Positions 1,719 to 14,249 of a stretch of DNA of 64,000 nt are shown here, piece after piece. The DNA is from Paraglaciecola arctica BSs20135 (lineage in GTDB: Bacteria > Pseudomonadota > Gammaproteobacteria > Enterobacterales > Alteromonadaceae). Location of the stretch: positions 248,001-312,000 of the forward strand of contig NZ_BAEO01000065.1 in assembly GCF_000314995.1 (NCBI RefSeq), in the 5' to 3' direction. Within the stretch, counting starts at the first letter, position 1; each line of letters starts with the position of its first letter. A program made the translations under genes and the position numbers. The notes below the pieces were generated by a model that ran no database searches, had not been told where the DNA came from, and was given only the letters and a program-made list of their open reading frames with translations.

Positions 1719-3044
1719 TTGTCTATTCGCCGCTATCTAACACTGATTTTGTTATCCGTGATCACATTAGTTACCTTTGCGGCAGCCATTCAGGGGTATC
1801 GCAGCAGTATGGTCAAGGCAACCAGTGTATTTGACAATGAATTGCGATCTTTGACCCATGTGTTGATTAATATCACCGACTTGAGTACCCAATCATTAGC
1901 ACCACAACCTGACGCTGCTTTTATCTACCAAATATGGCAACACAACAGATTAATTGTTAGCTCCCATCCTGAGCTTAAATCCGCTATTAGTGAGTTCAAA
2001 AATGAATTTTCTGAGAACAACTTTTTAGCTCAACGTTGGCGAACCTATGGAATTTTTTTAGGATCTGAGAATAAATGGGTGCTGGTTGCACAACCTTTAA
2101 ACCGGCGTTTTGAGCTAGCAGAACAAATGATCTTGGCAGCTGTCACGCCACTCATATTAAGCATTCCGTTGTTAGCCATTATAATATTTGTATTAGTTAG
2201 CACAGGATTGCGGCCACTAAGGCGTTTATCTGACAACCTGCGCGCCAAAAAGGCTGATGACCTTACTCCAATCATCCAGAAAAATCAGCAAAACGAACTC
2301 AGCCCAGTATTAGAAACTTTGAATCAATTGTTTGAGCGATTAAACGCAGCATTTTCAAGAGAAAGGCGCTTTGCTTCAGACGCAGCCCATGAATTACGCA
2401 CCCCACTAAGTGTATTAAAAATCAATGCCCATAACCTAGCGTTAGAGCTTAACAATAACAGTACTACAAACACCAATATGCAATACCTACAACAAGGTAT
2501 TGAACGTATGAGCCATGTAGTAGAGCAAATTTTATTGTTAAACCGTACCAACCCTGAACAATACCAAGGCCAGTTTAAACCAATAAATACGGCTTCACTT
2601 TGCCAAACCGTTATCGCTAGTTTATTCCCGCAAATTGAAGCTAAAAAACAGGAGATTGAACTTCTAGGTCAAGGTGCAAACATTCAAGGCGATGAGTTTT
2701 CTCTAGGTATACTGCTGCAAAATTTAATATCCAATGCCAGTAAATACTCACCTGAAGGGTCAATGATTAGAGTCACTTTGAAAAATGTGAATAATCAGGA
2801 CATTATTCAAGTCGAAGATTCTGGCCCAGGTATTGATAAAACAGAATATCAAAGAGTATTTGAACGTTTTTATCGAATTGGAGGTGATCGTCATGCCAGT
2901 AACACTCCGGGATGTGGTTTAGGGCTAGCCATTTCCAAGCATATTGCTGAGCTGCATAATGCCACATTGAAGCTTAGCCGCTCAGAGCAACTATCAGGCT
3001 TGTCAGTTGAGCTATTATTGCCACAGGGGCAGTTCAGTGAATAA
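1719..3044 (+). CDS. QseC-type sensor histidine kinase
   Basis: A 441-residue membrane sensor kinase paired with the regulator just upstream. It has a TTG start 2 bp after that gene's stop; no better start is visible. Order of parts: transmembrane helix at about 7-25, periplasmic sensor of about 110 residues, second transmembrane helix at about 145-168, HAMP-like linker, HisKA box with phosphoacceptor H224 (AAHELRTPLS), then HATPase_c with N box (NLISNASKYSPEGS), G1 box (DSGPGID) and G2 box (GCGLGLAISK). All catalytic boxes look intact. The periplasmic part shows no recognisable ligand motif. The cupredoxin gene starts inside its 3' end. Confidence 0.88.
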   Translation: MSIRRYLTLILLSVITLVTFAAAIQGYRSSMVKATSVFDNELRSLTHVLINITDLSTQSLAPQPDAAFIYQIWQHNRLIVSSHPELKSAISEFKNEFSENNFLAQRWRTYGIFLGSENKWVLVAQPLNRRFELAEQMILAAVTPLILSIPLLAIIIFVLVSTGLRPLRRLSDNLRAKKADDLTPIIQKNQQNELSPVLETLNQLFERLNAAFSRERRFASDAAHELRTPLSVLKINAHNLALELNNNSTTNTNMQYLQQGIERMSHVVEQILLLNRTNPEQYQGQFKPINTASLCQTVIASLFPQIEAKKQEIELLGQGANIQGDEFSLGILLQNLISNASKYSPEGSMIRVTLKNVNNQDIIQVEDSGPGIDKTEYQRVFERFYRIGGDRHASNTPGCGLGLAISKHIAELHNATLKLSRSEQLSGLSVELLLPQGQFSE

Positions 3045-3408
3045 ACCTGTGAATAAAACCTTTGGCTGCGCCGCTTTATTTTTTGGCTTATTTTGTCAGT
3101 CCATTTTAGCAGCGGTTCCTGAGTATCATATTCAGCTCAAGGATCATCTGTTTTTCCCCTCGCGTATCATTATACCGGCAAATCAAAAAGTAAAACTGGT
3201 GATCGATAATCAAGACAACACACCAGAGGAGTTTGATAGTTTTTCACTAAACCGCGAGAAGGTCATTTTTGCGCATCGTAAAGCAAAAATATTTATTGGC
3301 CCTCTAAAGCCAGGAGAATACGGTTTTTTTGGCGAATATAATCCTAATACCGCCCGCGGCACTGTGATTGTTGAGCATTCAAAAAAGGAGTCACCTGATG
3401 CTAATTAA
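3037..3408 (+). CDS. Exported cupredoxin-like protein (EfeO/cupredoxin type)
   Basis: About 123 residues from a GTG start that overlaps the kinase stop by 8 bp and has a GGGG Shine-Dalgarno about 8 bp upstream; an in-frame TTG at 3007 is possible but poorer. There is a signal peptide (about 1-22, SILAA) and then a single cupredoxin beta-sandwich. The sequence PEEFDS...LNREKVI...GPLKPGEYGFFGEYN is typical of the small cupredoxins found beside FTR1 permeases and in the N-terminal domain of EfeO. The classical type 1 copper Cys/His/Met set is not obvious. It likely acts in the periplasm as a metal-handling partner of the permease encoded next. Confidence 0.8.
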   Translation: MNKPVNKTFGCAALFFGLFCQSILAAVPEYHIQLKDHLFFPSRIIIPANQKVKLVIDNQDNTPEEFDSFSLNREKVIFAHRKAKIFIGPLKPGEYGFFGEYNPNTARGTVIVEHSKKESPDAN

Positions 3409-4177
3409 TACAGTGATTTTGTTTTTGCGCGATGCTTTACCCATTTTTGTACTAGTTGTGTACTTATATGCGCACCTGCCAGCCAGTAAGTTGTGGTTAT
3501 TCTTTTGCTTGGTAGCTGGAGCCCTGTTGAGCTTGGCATATATCAATCAAATTCATATTATTGGTCAATGGTTTGATGGCAACGGAATTGAATTATCTTT
3601 ATGGCTGTCGCAATTATTAATCTACTTGTTAACCCTCGTTTTAGGATATGGATTAACTCGCGTTCAGACTTCATATCAATATTTTATGTTTTGGGTAGCG
3701 GGCTTAATGATCAGCCTAACCTTAGTGTCTAAAGGCAGTAACTTTATCTTGTACTTTGATGGCTATTTAAATCAAAGCAATGTTCTGCAACCCCTGCTGC
3801 TCGGTACTTTTTTGGGTTTAGGCATATGTTTAAGTTTAGCCGTATTGTTGTATTTAGCAGCACAGTGGTTAAAACAACAATTCGGCCCTTGGGCAACATG
3901 GTCACTAATACTTGTGTACGTTACTGGCCAACTCGTCAACGCATTACCTTTATTGGTACAGGTCGACCTTATAGATCCATCAGCCATAGCTTGGAGTAGC
4001 CAGCATCTTGTTAGCGATGAGTTTGAGTTTGGTCATTTATTTAACGTGTTATTCGGCTATCAGGCTGCACCATCTAATGCCCAAGTGACTGTTTATGTTC
4101 TCGCTTTATTGATCCCTTTGGCTATTTTTTATTGGCTTAAGCAACGTTCAGCTTCACAATCAGGTAATAAACAATGA
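3398..4177 (+). CDS. FTR1-family permease-like membrane protein with altered metal motif
   Basis: A 259-residue polytopic inner-membrane protein with about seven hydrophobic helices. The ATG at 3398 has an AAAGGAG ribosome site and overlaps the cupredoxin gene by 11 bp. The N-terminus (FLRDALPIFVLVVYL) lines up with the first FTR1 helix, normally FLREGLEA, and the C-terminal part (EFGHLFNVLFGYQAAPS, last helix after it) matches the FTR1 end. The glutamates of the REXXE iron motif are missing in helix 1 (R-D-A-L-P), and no second REXXE is seen in the middle. FTR1 proteins carry ferric iron with an oxidase or a periplasmic partner; whether this one moves iron, another metal or nothing is open. 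Confidence 0.72.
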   Translation: MLINTVILFLRDALPIFVLVVYLYAHLPASKLWLFFCLVAGALLSLAYINQIHIIGQWFDGNGIELSLWLSQLLIYLLTLVLGYGLTRVQTSYQYFMFWVAGLMISLTLVSKGSNFILYFDGYLNQSNVLQPLLLGTFLGLGICLSLAVLLYLAAQWLKQQFGPWATWSLILVYVTGQLVNALPLLVQVDLIDPSAIAWSSQHLVSDEFEFGHLFNVLFGYQAAPSNAQVTVYVLALLIPLAIFYWLKQRSASQSGNKQ

Positions 4178-4881
4178 AAGCCTTTTCTCGCCTATCCATC
4201 GCGCTTTTTTACTCACTATTTTGCATCTCAGTAAGCTGGGCTGACGGTTTCCCAGTCGACAAGGTGTATCACCCATATGTATTGGCGAATGAACGGGAAT
4301 TAGAATGGCGTTTAACCTCGAGACAAAACGACGATGGCAATGTACTGGCGCAACGATTTGCTTATGGGCATTCGGTGTCAGAATACCTAACTATTGAAGG
4401 TTACATAGTAGGAGAAAGAGACGACACTGGAGATTTTGGTCTGCAAGCTTATGAAATTGAAGCCCGCTGGATGTTAACTGACCAAGGTGAATTATGGGCT
4501 GATTGGGGCATGTTATTCGAACTCGAAAAACAACATAGAGAAGATATTTACGAATTTACCAGCGGTTTGTTATTTGAAAAAGAATTTACACAAACCAGTT
4601 TAACAATCAACGCATTGCTTGTTTATGAATGGGGTAAAGACATTCAAGATGAATTTGAAACAGAATTTAGACTCAAATATCGTTATAGGTATTTGCCTGC
4701 CTTACAACCTTCTATCGAAATCTACACAGGTGAGGATTTTGTGGGTATTGGCCCAGGCTTTATGGGGGTGCATAGATACGAAGGGCAAAAACAACTGAAA
4801 TGGGAATTAGCCTTTATTGCAGGCTTAAACGGCGACGCTAAAGACCACACTCTAAGGTTTGCACTAGAATATGAATTTTAA
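4174..4881 (+). CDS. Predicted outer-membrane beta-barrel protein
   Basis: A 235-residue exported protein; signal peptide about 1-23 (ending SVSWA-DG). The start overlaps the permease stop (ATGA). The mature part is built of alternating polar/aromatic strands with turns rich in Asp/Gly and ends in Phe (LRFALEYEF), the usual C-terminal signal for BAM-dependent barrel insertion. No named family is recognised. Its place as the last gene of the two-component/cupredoxin/FTR1-like unit suggests an outer-membrane channel or binding partner for the same substrate; this is inference. Confidence 0.65.
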   Translation: MKAFSRLSIALFYSLFCISVSWADGFPVDKVYHPYVLANERELEWRLTSRQNDDGNVLAQRFAYGHSVSEYLTIEGYIVGERDDTGDFGLQAYEIEARWMLTDQGELWADWGMLFELEKQHREDIYEFTSGLLFEKEFTQTSLTINALLVYEWGKDIQDEFETEFRLKYRYRYLPALQPSIEIYTGEDFVGIGPGFMGVHRYEGQKQLKWELAFIAGLNGDAKDHTLRFALEYEF

Positions 4882-7298: not shown

Positions 7299-7574
7299 AT
7301 GAAAGCCTGCGCCTGCCATATTTTAGTCAAAGACAAAGCCCTAGCCGAAAAACTCAAAAGCCAACTCGATAAAGGCGGTAACTTTCATCAATTAGCAAAA
7401 AAGCACTCTATTTGTCCAACAGGAAAAAAAGGTGGTGACTTAGGTGAGTTTAGTCCAGGTACTATGGTCAAAGCCTTTGATAATGTGGTGTTTAAAAAGG
7501 AAATACTGACAGTACATGGTCCAGTGAAAACCCAGTTTGGTTATCATTTGATTAAGACACTTTATCGAAGTTAA
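7299..7574 (+). CDS. ppiC: Parvulin-type peptidyl-prolyl cis-trans isomerase
   Basis: A 91-residue stand-alone parvulin, the size of E. coli PpiC (93). It speeds cis-trans isomerisation of prolyl peptide bonds. There is no signal peptide, so it is cytoplasmic. Family motifs seen: ACHILVKD at the N-terminus, [23 protein letters not shown] in two adjoining parts in the middle, and [12 protein letters not shown] at the end, including the conserved active-site histidines. It is monocistronic between the glnN terminator and a long gene-free stretch. Confidence 0.93.
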
Positions 7575-8437
7575 ATACTAGGCTCGCCTTGGTAATGTTA
7601 GACAAGGTATATCATTACCTAAACATAGTTAGGCGGAACATCCTGTACAAGATCAGTGATTTAATATAAATGAGGCATAACCAGCTTTGTTAGGAGGACG
7701 AAGAAAGCACGCTTCGCGCCATCCTCCATGATGGTTTGAGTAATTCAAGATCGGCTTCCTTAACTTTTGTAGAGCAAATTTGTCAAAGCGATCATAGGCC
7801 TATGAATCAGGAATTAATGTTTTATCCCATTTGCATAAGTTGAGAAGGGCTGGGGTGACAGGCCGCTTCGATACCGGACGGTCGAGCGTTAAGCCTGATG
7901 GTGAAGTTTGTGCCAATACCCGACAGACATAGCTCGCTGTCCGACTTAGCGGTTATAGCAGATTACAGACGGTGAGGTTTTTTAAGATATTACACCTCGC
8001 TGACGGCGCAGATATTGAAGATATTACACGTCATTCCCTCGGAGGAGGGAACCCACTAACATTTACCGTGCAGCCAATTTTAATCGTTTAAAAACAGTAT
8101 GATATTAGTGTATTTCAATCAATTTTAACTTTGGAAATAAGATACTTTATTACCATCCACAGATGTTGTTGGAGGTTCCCGCCTTCGCGGGAATGACGGA
8201 TAATATATGGGAGGATGTCAGCGACTGCTTTCTCAGTAAACTTGCCATTGAAGGCGTCATTACTGACAGGCGGTTGATCGCTCAAAGTTCCAATTGAAAG
8301 AGCCAAACGCGACTGGCAGCTATCTTGGGCAAAGCAGTCATTCGACTGAGATAAATCGAACGACAGTTCCTCGTTCATTTAGACAATCACTATTCTTCTA
8401 TAAACGGCTCATTAAGCCTTCAGTGCCTATCAGCACT
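7575..8437. other. Gene-free stretch with palindromic repeats
   Basis: No convincing gene was found in these 863 bases on either strand. They hold two related palindromic units in opposite orientation (about 8029-8055 and 8171-8200), a short repeated string (AAGATATTACAC at 7985-7996 and again near 8018-8029) and an inverted pair GGAGGA/TCCTCC near 7693-7730. An open frame on the minus strand (8115-8378) is carried partly by one of the palindromes and is not believed. Confidence 0.55.
8171..8200. repeat. REP-like palindrome (GTTCCCGC/GCGGGAA type)
   Basis: A short hairpin (TTCCCGC, loop CTTC, GCGGGAA) flanked by GGAGG and ATGACGG. This class of small extragenic palindrome is frequent in proteobacterial genomes. 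A diverged unit in the other direction lies near 8029-8055 (CATTCCCTCGGAGGAGGGAA). Neither sits next to a recognisable transposase. Confidence 0.6.
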
Positions 8438-9331
8438 CTATCGATAACACCAAAACTTTATATCTTGCTCCTGCAAAAACGTTTCTGCATTGGCACCTTG
8501 CAATAAGGCTAAAGTCGCTAATAATCCTGCTTGAATACAATAGGGGGCTGCAATGGTCACCGATCTTGCGGCATCTTCAATTGGATATCCTGTTTCAGGA
8601 TCAAGTATATGACTATAACGTTTACCGTCTTTTAATAGATAACGCCTTGCATCACCACTAGTCGCTAATCCACCACTTATGATTTTTAACACCTTGGTCG
8701 CTTCTGCATTTTCAGGGCTTTCAATACCTATATACCATGGCTGTTTGTTGTGTCGTGCTCTTGTCACTTGAATATCACCGCCAAAATTCACTACTACTGA
8801 TGTGGTTGCAGCATACTCAGCGCATAACTTAGCAACACAGTCGACGGCGTATTCTTTACCTATGCCACCAAAATCCAATTCCATACCTTTGGGTAAAGTG
8901 ATTGATGACTGATCATATTTTACTTTTGCCCAACCGATATAGGGCATTAATTTCTTCACCATTTCGGGAGTAGGTAGTCTATCTGAACCATCAAATTTCC
9001 ATGCCTTGCGTAATACACCAGAGGTAATATCAAACATGCCCTCACTTAGCTCAAAGCAACTATTAGCAAATTCCAGTAGGCGAAAAATTTCTCCGTCAAT
9101 ATTTACCGGATTACCCTGACTTTGATTAATTTTGGCCATAGGATTGCTCGGCAAATAACGACTGAATTTTAGTTCGATACGTTTAGCTTCTGAATAAGCG
9201 AGTGACGTTAGGTGATTGGCAAGCATCGAGTCTTGGGTTTCAATCAGCAGCTCGCAAGGGCTGGCCATTGCAGAAAAGCGACCAATAAAATGGTCGCTTT
9301 TTTGTTCTATTGTAAAATCGCTAACTGACAA
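8438..9331 (-). CDS. apbE: ApbE family FAD:protein FMN transferase
   Basis: A 297-residue ApbE-type enzyme, which attaches FMN from FAD to a Thr/Ser of a target flavoprotein. Motifs seen: FGGIGKEYAVD near residue 153, the TSGDARRY box near 224 and YSHILDPETGYPI near 238. The start is a TTG with an AAGGG ribosome site 6 bp away; an in-frame stop just upstream rules out a longer protein. No signal peptide or lipobox is seen, unlike the usual exported ApbE lipoproteins, so flavinylation would occur in the cytoplasm. It is the last gene of a TlpA-DUF4266-DUF3570-ApbE operon (28 bp after DUF3570). No classical flavinylation target is visible nearby. Confidence 0.9.
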   Translation of the reverse strand: MSVSDFTIEQKSDHFIGRFSAMASPCELLIETQDSMLANHLTSLAYSEAKRIELKFSRYLPSNPMAKINQSQGNPVNIDGEIFRLLEFANSCFELSEGMFDITSGVLRKAWKFDGSDRLPTPEMVKKLMPYIGWAKVKYDQSSITLPKGMELDFGGIGKEYAVDCVAKLCAEYAATTSVVVNFGGDIQVTRARHNKQPWYIGIESPENAEATKVLKIISGGLATSGDARRYLLKDGKRYSHILDPETGYPIEDAARSVTIAAPYCIQAGLLATLALLQGANAETFLQEQDIKFWCYR

Positions 9332-9359
9332 AGGCAGCCCTTAAGATAAAAACACTAGA

Positions 9360-10682
9360 TTAGAAGCTATAACTAACTTGTGCAATCACCGCTTTCACGC
9401 TGGGGTATAAGTCGAGCTGCTGCAATACACCAGGCGCTTCGAAACCGGCGTTTTTAGGATCTTGTTGATAATATTCCAATCTAAATGCCCATTCGTTGCC
9501 ACTAGGCATTTTCATTCCATATTTTAGGCCAAGTGTATAAGCGGTCATTTCACCTAAACGATAGTCTGCGCTAGCAAAGCTAGGCAACGTTGTACCTTCC
9601 AGTAAAAATGGTTGATAGAACTCCGCTGCTGCTTGTTGGTAATACCTAAAATGTGGCTGAATATAAGTATTGTCAGTCAAATTAAACCGCAATCTTGAAT
9701 CAATAGTATGGGAATTGATGTCCCAGTCATCAGTAGCGTATCGATAGGAAATATCGGCAACACCACTATCCAAAGCATACTTAGTTTGCCAATAGAAACT
9801 GTGCCGGGTGCGCTCTGTTGGCCTGTCTTCATGTACTAACGATTGAGTTAACCCTTGGTCATTAACTACACTCAAAACCTTAAAGGGGTCGGTATGATAG
9901 CCATCAGACTTAGCGTAGCCATAATTAAATTGCATCAACATTCGTCGATTGATGACTTGTGTGACGCCTAACATCAAATCTACAGTGCTTTTATCGTCTG
10001 TATCTTCTTGTCTTGTGGCATCAAAAGCAGCTTGATAGGCTTGTTCATTAGCGAATTGACCTTGATCGATCACCATTTCAGAAAAAGCTACTGGGCGCCC
10101 ACCTTCGGGATCTATAGTGTCAAAAGCTAGTGATAATCCAGCCGATACTGTAGTGTTTTTCTGATTAAAATCTTTAGCAAGTGAACCATTAACTGAAATA
10201 GATAGGTAGTCATACTCTTTTGATAAATGCACACCAGTACTACCACGCATGTCATCCCAAAGAGGTTGTGTCCATTGGGCTTCTAGTTGTACACGGGTAT
10301 CCTTAAATGTGTCGTCTAAGGGTATTTCACCCGCACCTATGACATATTGTCCTTTGCCTGAAGGTCGCGTGAATGTTTGTGCGTTTGGTTGAGAAACAGC
10401 GCCTGACGCTGACGCACCTGTTAGCGTATCAAGAACAAGTTTTCCAGAGAAAATGTGTTCATCTCCAAAATCTTTTTTAGCTGAAAATACACCTTCAACT
10501 GCTGTGACTCTGTCTGTTTCACCGTAGTACAACAAAGCAGTATCCATTTCCCACACGCCTTCATCAGCTTGCACCAATGGAGTTGTGCCTAGCAGCGCGC
10601 ACGTCGCGGCTGCAAGTGCGGTATTTACGTTAGCTACTTTTTTTGTTTTTCCTGTTACATTGTTTTTCGATATTAATTGCAT
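9360..10682 (-). CDS. DUF3570 outer-membrane barrel protein
   Basis: About 440 residues from the ATG at 10682, which lies inside the end of the DUF4266 gene; the GGAGG ribosome site is formed by the glycine codons of that gene's tail. A TTG two codons upstream is possible but not needed. A signal peptide with a long n-region (about 1-40, cleaved near LVQA-DE) is followed by a sequence dense in amphipathic strands, ending in Phe (VIAQVSYSF), as in outer-membrane barrels. The opening WEMDTALLYYGETDRV and later blocks fit DUF3570, a family commonly found with DUF4266 and ApbE. Function is unknown; an outer-membrane partner for the redox lipoprotein is plausible. Confidence 0.82.
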   Translation of the reverse strand: MQLISKNNVTGKTKKVANVNTALAAATCALLGTTPLVQADEGVWEMDTALLYYGETDRVTAVEGVFSAKKDFGDEHIFSGKLVLDTLTGASASGAVSQPNAQTFTRPSGKGQYVIGAGEIPLDDTFKDTRVQLEAQWTQPLWDDMRGSTGVHLSKEYDYLSISVNGSLAKDFNQKNTTVSAGLSLAFDTIDPEGGRPVAFSEMVIDQGQFANEQAYQAAFDATRQEDTDDKSTVDLMLGVTQVINRRMLMQFNYGYAKSDGYHTDPFKVLSVVNDQGLTQSLVHEDRPTERTRHSFYWQTKYALDSGVADISYRYATDDWDINSHTIDSRLRFNLTDNTYIQPHFRYYQQAAAEFYQPFLLEGTTLPSFASADYRLGEMTAYTLGLKYGMKMPSGNEWAFRLEYYQQDPKNAGFEAPGVLQQLDLYPSVKAVIAQVSYSF

Positions 10683-10897
10683 CCACAACCTCCACCAGCA
10701 AACGCACGGCCACCACTAGTCGCTTCTTTACTAAAATAAATATGGTCATCTAAACCAAGGTCGTTACCTTCTGCGTCCAAAGCCATTTCTTCTTTGGCTA
10801 ATAGATCGCGCTCCCAAGGTTGCACGCCAAGATTGGCACAACCAACAAGCTGGGTACTGATTAAAAATGCGAGCATAATTTGTGCTTTTCTTAACAT
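10673..10897 (-). CDS. DUF4266 lipoprotein with Gly/Cys tail
   Basis: A 74-residue lipoprotein: signal peptide with lipobox VGC at Cys20, then a short hydrophilic body and the C-terminal tail GGRAFAGGGCGCN. The PWERDLLA motif near residue 27 and this tail are the marks of DUF4266. The two tail cysteines (CGC) could bind a metal, take part in thiol chemistry with the TlpA-like protein encoded upstream, or be a site of modification; none of this is shown here. The tail codons also serve as the ribosome site of the DUF3570 gene, which overlaps by 10 bp. Confidence 0.82.
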   Translation of the reverse strand: MLRKAQIMLAFLISTQLVGCANLGVQPWERDLLAKEEMALDAEGNDLGLDDHIYFSKEATSGGRAFAGGGCGCN

Positions 10898-10909
10898 AAC
10901 TGCTTCTCT

Positions 10910-11008
10910 TTATTAGTTAATGACTTCTTATTGGTTAATGACTTCTTATTAGTTAACGACTTCTTATTGGTTAATGGATTCTTCTAGGTAATGGATTCTA
11001 TTCGTTAA
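10910..11008. repeat. Degenerate 18-bp tandem repeat between tlpA-like and DUF4266 genes
   Basis: About five and a half head-to-tail copies of TTATTAGTTAATGACTTC. The copies at 10910, 10928, 10946 and 10964 differ by one to three bases; the one at 10982 is 17 bp and more diverged. The array fills the whole gap between the stop of the thioredoxin-like gene and the ribosome site region of the DUF4266 gene, and its last partial copy runs into the thioredoxin-like gene end. Confidence 0.85.
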
Positions 11009-11486
11009 GCAGTAAAACTAATTCTTGTTCGTATAAAGGTTCGCTACGGGTGAAAAAACCTTTATGTGAAAAACGAATTTTTCCCGTTTTATCAATTAGA
11101 TAACTGCTGGGCATACCTATTAATTGGTAGTCGCTGGCGATCTTGCCTTCAGGGTCATAAACTATCGGCATTTGTGCAGGTACTTTTTCTAAAAAAGTTT
11201 TTGCCAACGCTTTCTCAGTATCTAAATTGATGGCAATAATCTGTAAACCTTGCCCAGCATACTTCTGATGCATTTGGTTCATCCAAGGAAAGGATTTACG
11301 ACAGGGTTTGCACCAACTCGCCCAAAAATCGAGGTAAACAACCTGCCCTTTTAAAGCAGATAATTTTTCGGGCAACTGCTCATGAGTGATTGCAAAGTCA
11401 GGAGCTTCGCTCTGCTGTGCAAAACTTATAGAGAGCGGAGCTAAGCTGAGAATAAAAAACAACAGACTTAATCGGAATTGACGCAA
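10998..11486 (-). CDS. TlpA/ResA-like exported thioredoxin
   Basis: A 162-residue periplasmic thioredoxin-fold protein: signal peptide about 1-23 (ending SFAQQ), then an AhpC/TSA-Redoxin type domain with the active site WASWCKPCRK near residues 52-61 and the cis-proline region GMPSSYLID near 128-136. Such TlpA/ResA proteins reduce disulfides on apocytochromes or metal sites. It is the first gene of the TlpA-DUF4266-DUF3570-ApbE operon, so its substrate may be the CGC tail of the DUF4266 lipoprotein; that is inference from position. Confidence 0.88.
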   Translation of the reverse strand: MRQFRLSLLFFILSLAPLSISFAQQSEAPDFAITHEQLPEKLSALKGQVVYLDFWASWCKPCRKSFPWMNQMHQKYAGQGLQIIAINLDTEKALAKTFLEKVPAQMPIVYDPEGKIASDYQLIGMPSSYLIDKTGKIRFSHKGFFTRSEPLYEQELVLLLNE

Positions 11487-11562
11487 AATATTTACCTTCT
11501 AAATAATGTATAGCCATATTAGGCACCGAACCTTAAGTAAAGCTTAAGGATTGTTTAAGGCA

Positions 11563-11588
11563 ATAAAAAAGCTCCCGTAGGAGCTTTA
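11563..11588 (-). terminator. Rho-independent terminator of arcA
   Basis: On the minus strand the hairpin AAAGCTCC-loop-GGAGCTTT is followed by a run of six T (seen as AAAAAA at 11565-11570 on the plus strand). It lies about 25 bp after the arcA stop. Confidence 0.85.
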
Positions 11589-11612
11589 TAAATTAATTAA
11601 CTAAAAGAGATT

Positions 11613-12320
11613 CTATGAATCTACAGTGCCGCAGAAACGATAACCTTCACCGTGAATAGTCACAATCAAATCATCGGCGTTAATTTCTGATTCAAAATGT
11701 TTTCGGATCCTACGGATAGTCACGTCAACTGTGCGGTCATTAGGGCGTAATTCGCGGCCAGTCATTTCCATAATCAGTTGTTCACGAGTTAGAATTTTAC
11801 CTGGGTTGTTCAAAAACAAATGTAACGCTCTAAACTCACTACGTGGTAAACGAAATTCTTTGCTACTAGGAGAAATCAAACTACGGCTATCGCCGTCTAA
11901 TATCCAACCGTTAAAGTTTACACGGCTTGGTAGGTCATCATCTTCACTACTGTTAGTAGTGCGTGCCAATAAGTTACGAGCACGTATAGTCAATTCACGA
12001 GGATTGAAAGGTTTAGTCAGGTAGTCATCAGCACCAATTTCTAGACCTAAAATTCGGTCTACATCATTGTCTCTGCCAGTTAAAAATATCAAACCAACAT
12101 TCTTACGACCACGCACTTCGCGCGCCAGCAGCAAGCCATTTTTGCCAGGTAAATTGATATCCATGATGACCAGGTTGATGGTGTTGTTTTCGAAGATGTC
12201 ATGCATCTGTTCGCCATGTTCGGCTTCAAATACATTGTACCCTTCTGCTTCGAATAAGCTTTTAAGGGTGGTACGTGTGACCACTTCATCTTCAACAATT
12301 AATACGTTAGGAGTCTGCAT
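11613..12320 (-). CDS. arcA: Aerobic respiration response regulator ArcA
   Basis: A 235-residue OmpR-family regulator, nearly the size of E. coli ArcA (238) and alike along its length: [12 protein letters not shown] at the start, phosphoacceptor D54 in [39 protein letters not shown], and the winged-helix end [15 protein letters not shown]...HGEGYRFCG. ArcA adjusts respiratory and carbon metabolism genes to oxygen supply. It has its own terminator. The kinase gene upstream on the same strand is not an ArcB-type tripartite hybrid, so the cognate ArcB is presumably elsewhere. Confidence 0.96.
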
Positions 12321-12491
12321 GTTTCAGCCCTGGTTAGGAATTTATGTAAAAGTTTATCAGAAAATATCGAAAAATCAGGGTTTTATCTAGCATAAATTGA
12401 TTTTATAAATAATATTTATGCATTTATGCTGCTCGTTCCTAACAATTCTCCAGTTATTTCCACTTACAGAGGCTGTCAGGGTGGATTAGAG

Positions 12492-14141
12492 TCACATAAA
12501 AGAACCAACATGAACTTTGTCGGTATTAACCTTTTTCACAGGGAACAAAATTTTAAATTGAATGCCCTGCCCCTCTTCACTAACAATAGATATTGAGCCG
12601 TTTAAGGCTTGTGTCACTAAATTGTAAACCAAGTGCATACCTAGGCCACTGCCCCCCTGACCACGTTTGGTGGTGACAAAAGGATCAAAAATACGTTTGC
12701 GTAAATGCTCAGGAATTCCTTTGCCATTATCTTTAAATTCTATACTGACTTTAGTGTCATCAACAGACTCAATAGTAATATCTATTTGGCCTTTATCCAT
12801 GTCCTCAAAACCATGAATAATAGAATTCATAATTAAATTAATCATAATCTGATTAATTGGCCCAGCTTTAGATTCAACCACTAAATTATCTGCACAATTC
12901 ACGTTTATCTGATGTTTTACCTTTTTTAACTTAGGTCGCATCGACATTAATATTTCGTCCATCAACTTAGAAAAAGAGAAAACGCGATTATTTTCCGAGG
13001 ACTGATCAACAGCAACTTGTTTAAAGCTTGAAATTAGCTCTGCTGCCCGATTCAGATTGCGATATATGATATTAAGGTTTTCTTCGCCCTCAGCAATGAA
13101 CTTCGACAAAGAACTGGCTTTGAGAGTTTTGTCTTCAAAAGCTTTACGCATATCGGACAGTCTATCTAACATCATGGTAGATGCCGTCACACCTAGTCCA
13201 ATTGGAGTATTAACTTCATGAGCAACCCCAGCTACCATATCTCCTAAAGAAGCCATTTTTTCATTTTGAACTATTTGCCGCTGAAACTGATGTAGCTTCT
13301 CTAGAGTTTGGATTAACTCGCTATTCGCTTCTTTTAAGGCATTGGTGCGCTGTTTAACCTTTTCTTCTAAACTGGCATTTAATTTAGCTTGCTCTGTTTC
13401 AGCTGCAGTCTGCCGCATCATATGTTCTTGGGTTCGCTGCAACATGTTATTAAATGCTTCACCCAATATATCTAGTTCTTTAATACCATTTAATTCAGCT
13501 CTACTTGAAAAGTCTTTTTGGCGAGATATTCGCTGCACAAGTTTAACCAAAACGTTGATGGGTGCTGTAATGGCTCTTTGGAGTTTTAACGTAAGTAAAA
13601 AACAGATCAGCAAACACACAACCAACACACTTATAGTGAGCAAGATTGAGTTGGCGGTTAGGTTTTGTAATTCATCTTCTGATGCGCGCAGATAAAGGTA
13701 ACCCACAACTTGATTTTCACTTCGAATAGGGCGAATAATTTCTACTACCCCAGCAGCCATTTTAGGTTGAAATAATTGTTCTACCTGATCAAATTTAGCT
13801 TTTACGGGAGCGATACCTTCTTTATTGTAACTGGCAAAAAAAGCGATGTTTTCATCATCTAAAATTTTATAAATGTGTACATTTTCAATCAATTTTGAAG
13901 CGGCTAATATCTTCAGATTTTTCTCTTCAAGCAAACCTTCATCTTGAAGCAAGGACTCAACTGAATCACGTCCAATAACCTCAGCAAAAATCACCAAATT
14001 GTCTTGTAGCGATTGTCTATAAGTACTAATTTGACTATATAAATTGACACCTGAAGACAATATCAATGACAAAGTAGTGATACCCATAACGACCCAAATT
14101 ATCAGGCTTTTAATTGATAAAAATTTAGTGTCTGAGGCCAT
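12492..14141 (-). CDS. Membrane sensor histidine kinase
   Basis: About 550 residues. Two transmembrane helices (about 14-36 and 165-187) bracket a periplasmic sensor of about 125 residues; then HAMP (about 190-240), a long coiled coil, a dimerisation box with His near residue 308 (GVAHEVNTPIGLG) and HATPase_c with N box (MNLIMNSIIHGFED), G1 (DNGKGIPEH) and G2 (GQGGSGLGMHLVYNLV). The HEVNTP form is typical of NtrB/DctB-like kinases. No receiver or Hpt domain, so it is not ArcB although it lies upstream of arcA. The ATG at 14141 has AAGGAG 14 bp before it; a GTG at 14156 would overlap that site. Partner regulator not visible. Confidence 0.85.
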   Translation of the reverse strand: MASDTKFLSIKSLIIWVVMGITTLSLILSSGVNLYSQISTYRQSLQDNLVIFAEVIGRDSVESLLQDEGLLEEKNLKILAASKLIENVHIYKILDDENIAFFASYNKEGIAPVKAKFDQVEQLFQPKMAAGVVEIIRPIRSENQVVGYLYLRASEDELQNLTANSILLTISVLVVCLLICFLLTLKLQRAITAPINVLVKLVQRISRQKDFSSRAELNGIKELDILGEAFNNMLQRTQEHMMRQTAAETEQAKLNASLEEKVKQRTNALKEANSELIQTLEKLHQFQRQIVQNEKMASLGDMVAGVAHEVNTPIGLGVTASTMMLDRLSDMRKAFEDKTLKASSLSKFIAEGEENLNIIYRNLNRAAELISSFKQVAVDQSSENNRVFSFSKLMDEILMSMRPKLKKVKHQINVNCADNLVVESKAGPINQIMINLIMNSIIHGFEDMDKGQIDITIESVDDTKVSIEFKDNGKGIPEHLRKRIFDPFVTTKRGQGGSGLGMHLVYNLVTQALNGSISIVSEEGQGIQFKILFPVKKVNTDKVHVGSFM

Positions 14142-14249
14142 ATTACTTTTACGCACTCCTTGGACTGAGGACTTGTCATTAATGATATTGATACAAAAAC
14201 CTTCGAATTGAAACTAGTAGACTGAATTTACTAGATTTCATTCACACAA

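Follow-up and report, generated by a model that had tools for sequence, protein, structure and literature searches.

Gene clusters that combine ApbE, a flavin adenine dinucleotide (FAD):protein flavin mononucleotide (FMN) transferase, with DUF3570, a thioredoxin-like protein and DUF4266 have already been described (Meheust et al. 2021, PMC8238504). According to the same source, the DUF3570 of Chlorobium luteolum was experimentally flavinylated by its cognate ApbE at [ST]GA[ST] sites and, when expressed in E. coli, was found mainly in the pellet and flavinylated nonetheless. The same four families are encoded in the stretch of DNA analysed here, 64,000 nucleotides of Paraglaciecola arctica BSs20135 (contig NZ_BAEO01000065.1, positions 248,001 to 312,000), which is called the window below. 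The two systems are alike in their families, in DUF3570 as the ApbE substrate and in the C-terminal CxC of DUF4266, which is CGCN in the window. However, DsbD was proposed as the electron source of the described clusters and is absent from the window operon, and the thioredoxin of the window is AhpC-TSA/ResA-like, not PF13899. Moreover, an ApbE without signal peptide next to an exported target, and the loss of its Mg-binding Asp, are features of the window that are not discussed in the available part of PMC8238504, where a signal in any one target gene sufficed for a cluster to be selected.

The cytosolic ApbE of Klebsiella pneumoniae (Bertsova et al. 2014, via PMC12052999) also lacks a signal peptide, but its target, a soluble fumarate reductase, stays in the cytosol, whereas the target in the window is predicted to be an exported outer-membrane protein. 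ApbE flavinylation is treated in the available literature as mostly extracytosolic, and no published account of a cytosolic ApbE clade without the Asp, or of the surface position of the flavin, was found in the open-access literature. The DUF3570-type system itself is already published, and the signal-less ApbE with the proposed flavinylation before export is the new part. MtrCAB is a porin-cytochrome conduit, in which electrons pass the outer membrane by way of haems and a barrel. The role proposed for the window system is similar, with thiols and a flavin and not haems.

The best explanation of the locus, with a probability of about 0.6, is that a cytosolic ApbE flavinylates DUF3570 before export, in a thiol/flavin electron-transfer system whose thiols reduce FMN at the cell surface. 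ApbE would move FMN from FAD onto Ser91 of the DUF3570 precursor in the cytosol. The precursor, which bears a weakly hydrophobic signal peptide, would then be exported by Sec and inserted into the outer membrane as a barrel, so that the FMN would come to lie at loop L2, on the extracellular end of strand 3. On the periplasmic side, DsbD would feed TlpA, and TlpA would reduce the Cys-Gly-Cys at the C-terminus of DUF4266; the flexible tail of this lipoprotein, rich in Gly, could reach or enter the barrel and reduce the FMN. The reduced surface FMN would hand its electrons to an external acceptor.

The operon and the target of ApbE

The genes encoding the TlpA/ResA-like thioredoxin, DUF4266, DUF3570 and ApbE form a real four-gene operon on the minus strand. 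All four lie where the original prediction, made from the letters of the window, had placed them, and its proposal of a single envelope redox unit was supported. The features are the following.

10998..11486, minus strand: TlpA/ResA-like thioredoxin, with signal peptide and WCKPC active site, predicted periplasmic
10673..10897, minus strand: DUF4266, 74 residues (PF14086, 1.3e-21), with lipobox LVGC and Ala at +2
10676..10696, minus strand: codons of the GGGCGCN tail of DUF4266, with the CGC thiol pair proposed as relay
9360..10682, minus strand: DUF3570 (PF12094, 6.9e-178), with Sec-type signal peptide, predicted 16-strand outer-membrane beta-barrel
10410..10430, minus strand: flavinylation motif D85-T-L-T-G-A-S91 of DUF3570, an aligned column in relatives, with the Ser91 codon at 10412-10410
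8438..9331, minus strand: ApbE, FAD:protein FMN transferase (PF02424, 2.9e-66), with TTG start and without signal peptide
8852..8854, minus strand: Glu160 of ApbE in GGIGKEY, a Gly in the three secreted ApbEs of the set
8525..8527, minus strand: Gly269 of ApbE, in place of the Mg-binding Asp (D285 in V. cholerae, D301 in Listeria FmnB)

The thioredoxin (11486-10998) matched AhpC-TSA (1.8e-23) and a ResA-like model (5.6e-32, under the NCBIfam cut-off). DUF4266 is predicted to be an outer-membrane lipoprotein from its lipobox and the Ala at +2. Its gene overlaps that of DUF3570, the codons of the DUF4266 tail covering the DUF3570 start (ATG at 10682 or alternatively TTG at 10688, with the end at 9360), and the gap between DUF3570 and ApbE is 28 bases.

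A scan of named genomes with five DUF3570 queries gave 465 stretches with relatives, of which the best 80 were kept. In these loci, keyed to DUF3570 alone, all four genes were found in 56/80 and ApbE in 66/80; Zhongshania marina (L097) and Glaciecola sp. (L167) are among the carriers of the complete set. Because the loci were picked by DUF3570 only, this arrangement goes beyond chance. Contigs titled Myxococcota and Deltaproteobacteria were among the best 80 of 465, and no Chlorobium was; as selection was by DUF3570 score, short types of this protein are under-sampled. Furthermore, in a class survey of 274 genomes, 71 of them with DUF3570, a cytosolic-type ApbE was found in 39/40 genomes with long-type DUF3570 versus 3/234 others, with thresholds chosen post hoc (DUF3570 E<=1e-45; ApbE type by score and residues) and no correction for relatedness. 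In the sole exception among the 40 (G052), the contig with DUF3570 is 3.9 kb long. The cytosolic-type ApbEs without long-type DUF3570 are those of L199, L200 and L201 (genomes G034, G056 and G193).

Regarding the target, the flavinylation motif given in the review PMC12052999 is D-x-x-[ST]-G-A-[ST], and the site of the window DUF3570, D85-TLTGA-S91, fits it perfectly. The same column reads [ST]G[AS][ST] in 119/134 aligned DUF3570 rows. DUF3570 is well supported as the target of ApbE flavinylation. It had been stated that no usual ApbE target is encoded here, and this was not supported, as DUF3570 is a published substrate and the window copy carries the complete site. While two flavin sites are reported for the DUF3570 of PMC8238504, the window protein has one; its next candidate is SGAV, so it probably carries a single flavin.

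The Gly/Cys tail of DUF4266 had instead been suggested as the modified or metal-binding site. The C-terminus is GGRAFAGGGCGCN, exactly as quoted there, and the claimed conservation was borne out, with CGCx terminal in 117/119 distinct sequences and GCGCN in 112/119. This conservation and the position of the gene in the same operon as ApbE are in favour of the tail as the site, and CGC could bind a metal; but DUF4266 lacks D-x-x-[ST]-G-A-[ST], and Ser/Thr is invariant at none of its last 18 positions, which makes a flavin there unlikely, and the adjoining DUF3570 not only has the motif but was shown to be a substrate in another species. A role of the tail as ApbE-modified or metal-binding site is therefore highly improbable, and as a flavin site it was rejected for the lack of the motif and of an invariant Ser/Thr. 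The CGCN tail is more likely a thiol relay than a flavin site. Redox cycling of the CxC of DUF4266 has been proposed (PMC8238504). The AlphaFold model of DUF4266 has a helix at 21-39 and an unstructured tail (mean predicted local distance difference test score, pLDDT, 69.1); its last eight residues are below 50 and uninformative on the tail.

Variants of DUF3570 were also seen. The short DUF3570s of L084-L087, L202, L203, L213 and L214 often carry SSAS or TAAS, not [ST]GA[ST], and in loci of this kind ApbE is secreted or lies outside the locus; L079 and L083 have SGAS. L079 (6306-8310, on contig C46 of the window genome, G000) is a second TlpA-DUF4266-DUF3570 set, of short type, with the motif DTISGAS and no adjoining ApbE. 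In L036 (5882-8641) and L044 (4966-7677), DUF3570 is extended at its C-terminus by about 360-370 residues with many His and Met, and the extension of L036 had no Pfam match. On a Hymenobacter plasmid (L214, 6542-7884), DUF3570 is split over two frames and annotated as two genes.

Signal peptide and metal site of ApbE

An in-frame stop lies just upstream of apbE, separated by three codons from the TTG start, and only 23 residues separate it from the conserved motif AMASPCE, so there is no room for a signal peptide, whose absence the original prediction had noted. In the relatives, signal peptides were judged by a 12-residue hydrophobicity window (mean >=1.9), with TlpA and DUF4266 as controls and no dedicated predictor. 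The loci contained 103 ApbE open reading frames (ORFs), 101 of them within 6 kb of DUF3570 and two unlinked, which are the secreted ApbEs of the window genome; among the 101, three pairs of loci are duplicates (L074/L166, L080/L155, L081/L115) and the gene of L050 is broken into two pieces. A hydrophobic N-terminal segment was present in 1/101 linked ApbE ORFs (L084), compared with 120/126 DUF4266, 97/111 TlpA and only 32/129 DUF3570 in the same loci. With a threshold of 1.6, the counts were 101/129 for DUF3570 and 4/102 for ApbE (two of the four unlinked); the ApbE of L071 scores 1.65, from an alternative upstream start.

From these sequences, the signal-less ApbE is general among the sampled relatives and not peculiar to the window. 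Export signals in the orthologous cluster ApbEs, named beforehand as the observation that would refute the idea, are thus mostly absent. The claim stands for 100/101 linked ORFs and fails in three loci found later, where a secreted ApbE lies beside DUF3570 (L202, G157, peak 2.39; L203, G268, 2.28; L214, 3.02). The ApbE of a Vibrio plasmid (L215) is of the cytosolic form.

The Asp in question binds Mg in characterised ApbEs (PMC12052999, PMC8906456). Of the catalytic Ser and His and the Mg-binding Asp of an FMN transferase, the window ApbE keeps Ser225 and His241 and has Gly269 in place of the Asp; its Pfam assignment is clear despite this loss (PF02424, 2.9e-66). Among 94 distinct ApbE sequences (7 short ORFs were left out), 93 have both catalytic residues, Ser and His, and the remaining one is gapped there; 90 have the neighbouring Thr. 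The Asp position holds Gly in 89/89 readable signal-less ApbEs (2 more are gapped) and Asp in three signal-bearing ones; L202, L203 and L214 keep it too, which gives six signal-bearing ApbEs with Asp in all. Directly after the active-site Lys, 90/94 have Glu, one has Lys and the three signal-bearing ApbEs have Gly. The Vibrio L215 protein has Gly at the Asp position and Glu after the Lys. In a tree of 58 of 106 ApbE rows, a single branch (support 100/99) parts the six signal-bearing rows from all others.

Alternatively, the cluster ApbE could have ceased to transfer FMN and act as a chaperone, or put something else on Ser91. The uniform Gly points in this direction, as FmnB lost most or all of its activity when residues that contact Mg were replaced by alanine (PMC8906456). 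Against it, the catalytic Ser and His and the Thr are kept almost throughout, and Glu160 may stand in for the Asp, which leaves a lost transferase activity improbable. In the E. coli enzyme, the first metal is held by the main chain of Thr166 and the second by Glu169, three residues further on (PMC4767422). The spacing puts Glu160 of the window one residue past the place of E. coli Glu169 and four past the match of FmnB Ala187, a Mg contact. That Glu160 substitutes for the lost Asp is a conjecture. AMP, ADP and ATP (adenosine mono-, di- and triphosphate) inhibit FmnB (PMC8906456), and we conjecture that the changed metal site could lower inhibition by cytosolic nucleotides.

The predicted barrel and the time of flavin attachment

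The AlphaFold model of DUF3570, built with 65 sequences, has a pLDDT of 90.9 and 16 barrel strands counted from the DSSP line. It presents the pattern of a barrel, with an even strand number, long outer links and short inner ones: 2-5 residues follow the even strands, and every long link (19-38) comes after an odd strand. The same order is found in outer-membrane proteins whose two ends are periplasmic. Ser91 is among the last residues of strand 3, just ahead of the 29-residue loop L2, and on this model it would lie at the extracellular end of the strand, which would place FMN at the surface of the living cell. The best PDB matches in Foldseek include AlgE, FadL and OmpG, with TM-scores of about 0.3-0.5, so there is no close relative. 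In the available part of PMC8238504, DUF3570 is not called a barrel, and "outer membrane" appears once, for TonB receptors.

A surface site would be out of reach of a periplasmic enzyme after assembly, so modification should precede assembly, in the cytosol or in the periplasm. The cytosol is favoured because the cluster ApbE has no signal peptide. The flavin is therefore probably attached to DUF3570 before export; modification ahead of export had been suggested originally and is the likeliest reading given such an ApbE. A folded LOV protein was not modified, while co-expression was successful (PMC10722498), and this result and the pellet-bound, flavinylated DUF3570 of C. luteolum both fit modification of an unfolded chain.

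The hydrophobic peak of the DUF3570 signal has a median of 1.83 in long types (n=120) versus 2.53 in short types or those with secreted ApbE (n=12; p=2.3e-6, not corrected for relatedness; 2 of 134 rows left out). ApbE is in the locus in 97/122 long-type rows. Weak signal peptides favour post-translational export, which would allow time for modification.

The window genome encodes three ApbEs in all, two of them secreted (one on C46 beside NQR genes, the other on C5). One of these could flavinylate DUF3570 in the periplasm, with the cluster ApbE serving another, cytosolic protein. Both have kept the Asp, Klebsiella has a cytosolic ApbE that serves a fumarate reductase of the same compartment (PMC12052999), and there are the three genomes with cytosolic-type ApbE but no long DUF3570. 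This explanation is nevertheless unlikely: the cluster ApbE is linked to DUF3570 and co-occurs with it in 39/40 genomes, and the secreted ApbEs have candidate targets of their own, namely two FMN_bind proteins, encoded among NQR-like and Rnf-like genes, and one DUF2271, on C18.

Electron route and weight of the evidence

The window genome has one DsbD_TM match. Its gene, on the same contig as the operon and about 9 kb away, starts 0.6 kb ahead of the window. A DsbD gene lies near the cluster in 11/126 loci and adjoins it, after ApbE, on the Vibrio plasmid L215. In PMC8238504, 316 clusters of the DUF3570 kind without DsbD were counted. The route and direction from DsbD through TlpA and DUF4266 to the surface FMN are hypothetical. 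The flow could also be reversed, with the surface flavin as oxidant of the thiols and oxygen (O2) as final acceptor: the sequences do not fix the direction, and reversal is possible in principle according to PMC8238504. The presence of DsbD, a source of reductant, near those 11 clusters and beside that of L215 argues against it, and we regard reversed flow as unlikely.

Several points weigh against cytosolic flavinylation followed by thiol-driven reduction at the surface. A chain with bound FMN would have to pass through SecYEG, which is hypothetical, and the active C. luteolum ApbE (ABB24423.1) may be of the Asp-keeping type. As aligned, the window ApbE is without the Mg-binding Asp, while Mg-contact mutants of FmnB lose most or all of their activity. 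Because the six signal-bearing rows sit together across one 100/99 branch, the tree shows a single loss of signal peptide and Asp, not many independent ones. Cytosolic modification is not universal, since the DUF3570-linked ApbE is secreted in L214, L084 and L202/L203, and in the window genome the two secreted ApbEs could act on DUF3570 instead. The contrast in signal peptides is one by DUF3570 type, with a secreted ApbE adjoining in only 5/12, and at least three of those 12 genomes (L079, L210, L211) hold a cytosolic-type ApbE elsewhere. Lastly, DsbD is outside the operon, so that the locus departs from the DsbD system of PMC8238504.

A broader reading, tentative and rather doubtful, would make the system a haem-free conduit: a barrel with covalent FMN on its outer face. 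The FMN would be attached by cytosolic ApbEs of a clade whose metal site has been rebuilt (Asp to Gly, Gly to Glu), and the flavinylated chain would pass through Sec and the beta-barrel assembly machinery (BAM). The rebuilt site may lower nucleotide inhibition and the CGC tail may enter the barrel.

Possible electron partners were sought in genes near the DUF3570 clusters, which were grouped by single linkage, with one representative of each group scanned with Pfam. Cytochrome PSCyt/DUF1592-like genes were near the cluster in 17/126 loci (L074, L081, L106, L120, L151 and others), and DUF1501-like genes (two groups of 8) and DUF1552-like genes (6) were also close; their products are possible electron partners. 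The window locus is in none of these gene groups, so no acceptor is named.

Around the operon, the response regulator gene, which is on the same strand, is followed by a terminator-like hairpin (11587-11568). The two-component genes at 11613-14156 thus probably form a unit of their own; terminator-like sites are consensus matches only, with 9 found versus 3.7 in shuffles. An 18-bp tandem repeat of 5.6 copies (10910-11008) lies between the TlpA and DUF4266 genes. A 15-pair hairpin (9270-9305), terminator-like on the plus strand, lies in the 5' coding end of apbE and might affect its translation. The Rfam scan of 7500-12500 gave nothing at gathering score. At 3007-4881, 3.5 kb from the operon, there are genes for a cupredoxin (PF13473), a multi-pass membrane protein that is FTR1-like by eye and a further protein, the last two without Pfam match; a role in metal uptake is possible.

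If true, a cytosolic ApbE clade with an outer-membrane partner would mean that a bulky cofactor is attached ahead of Sec export. It would also mean a covalent flavin on the cell surface, for which iron reduction or other extracellular electron transfer is directly testable, and the change of Asp to Gly in ApbE poses a clear enzymological question.

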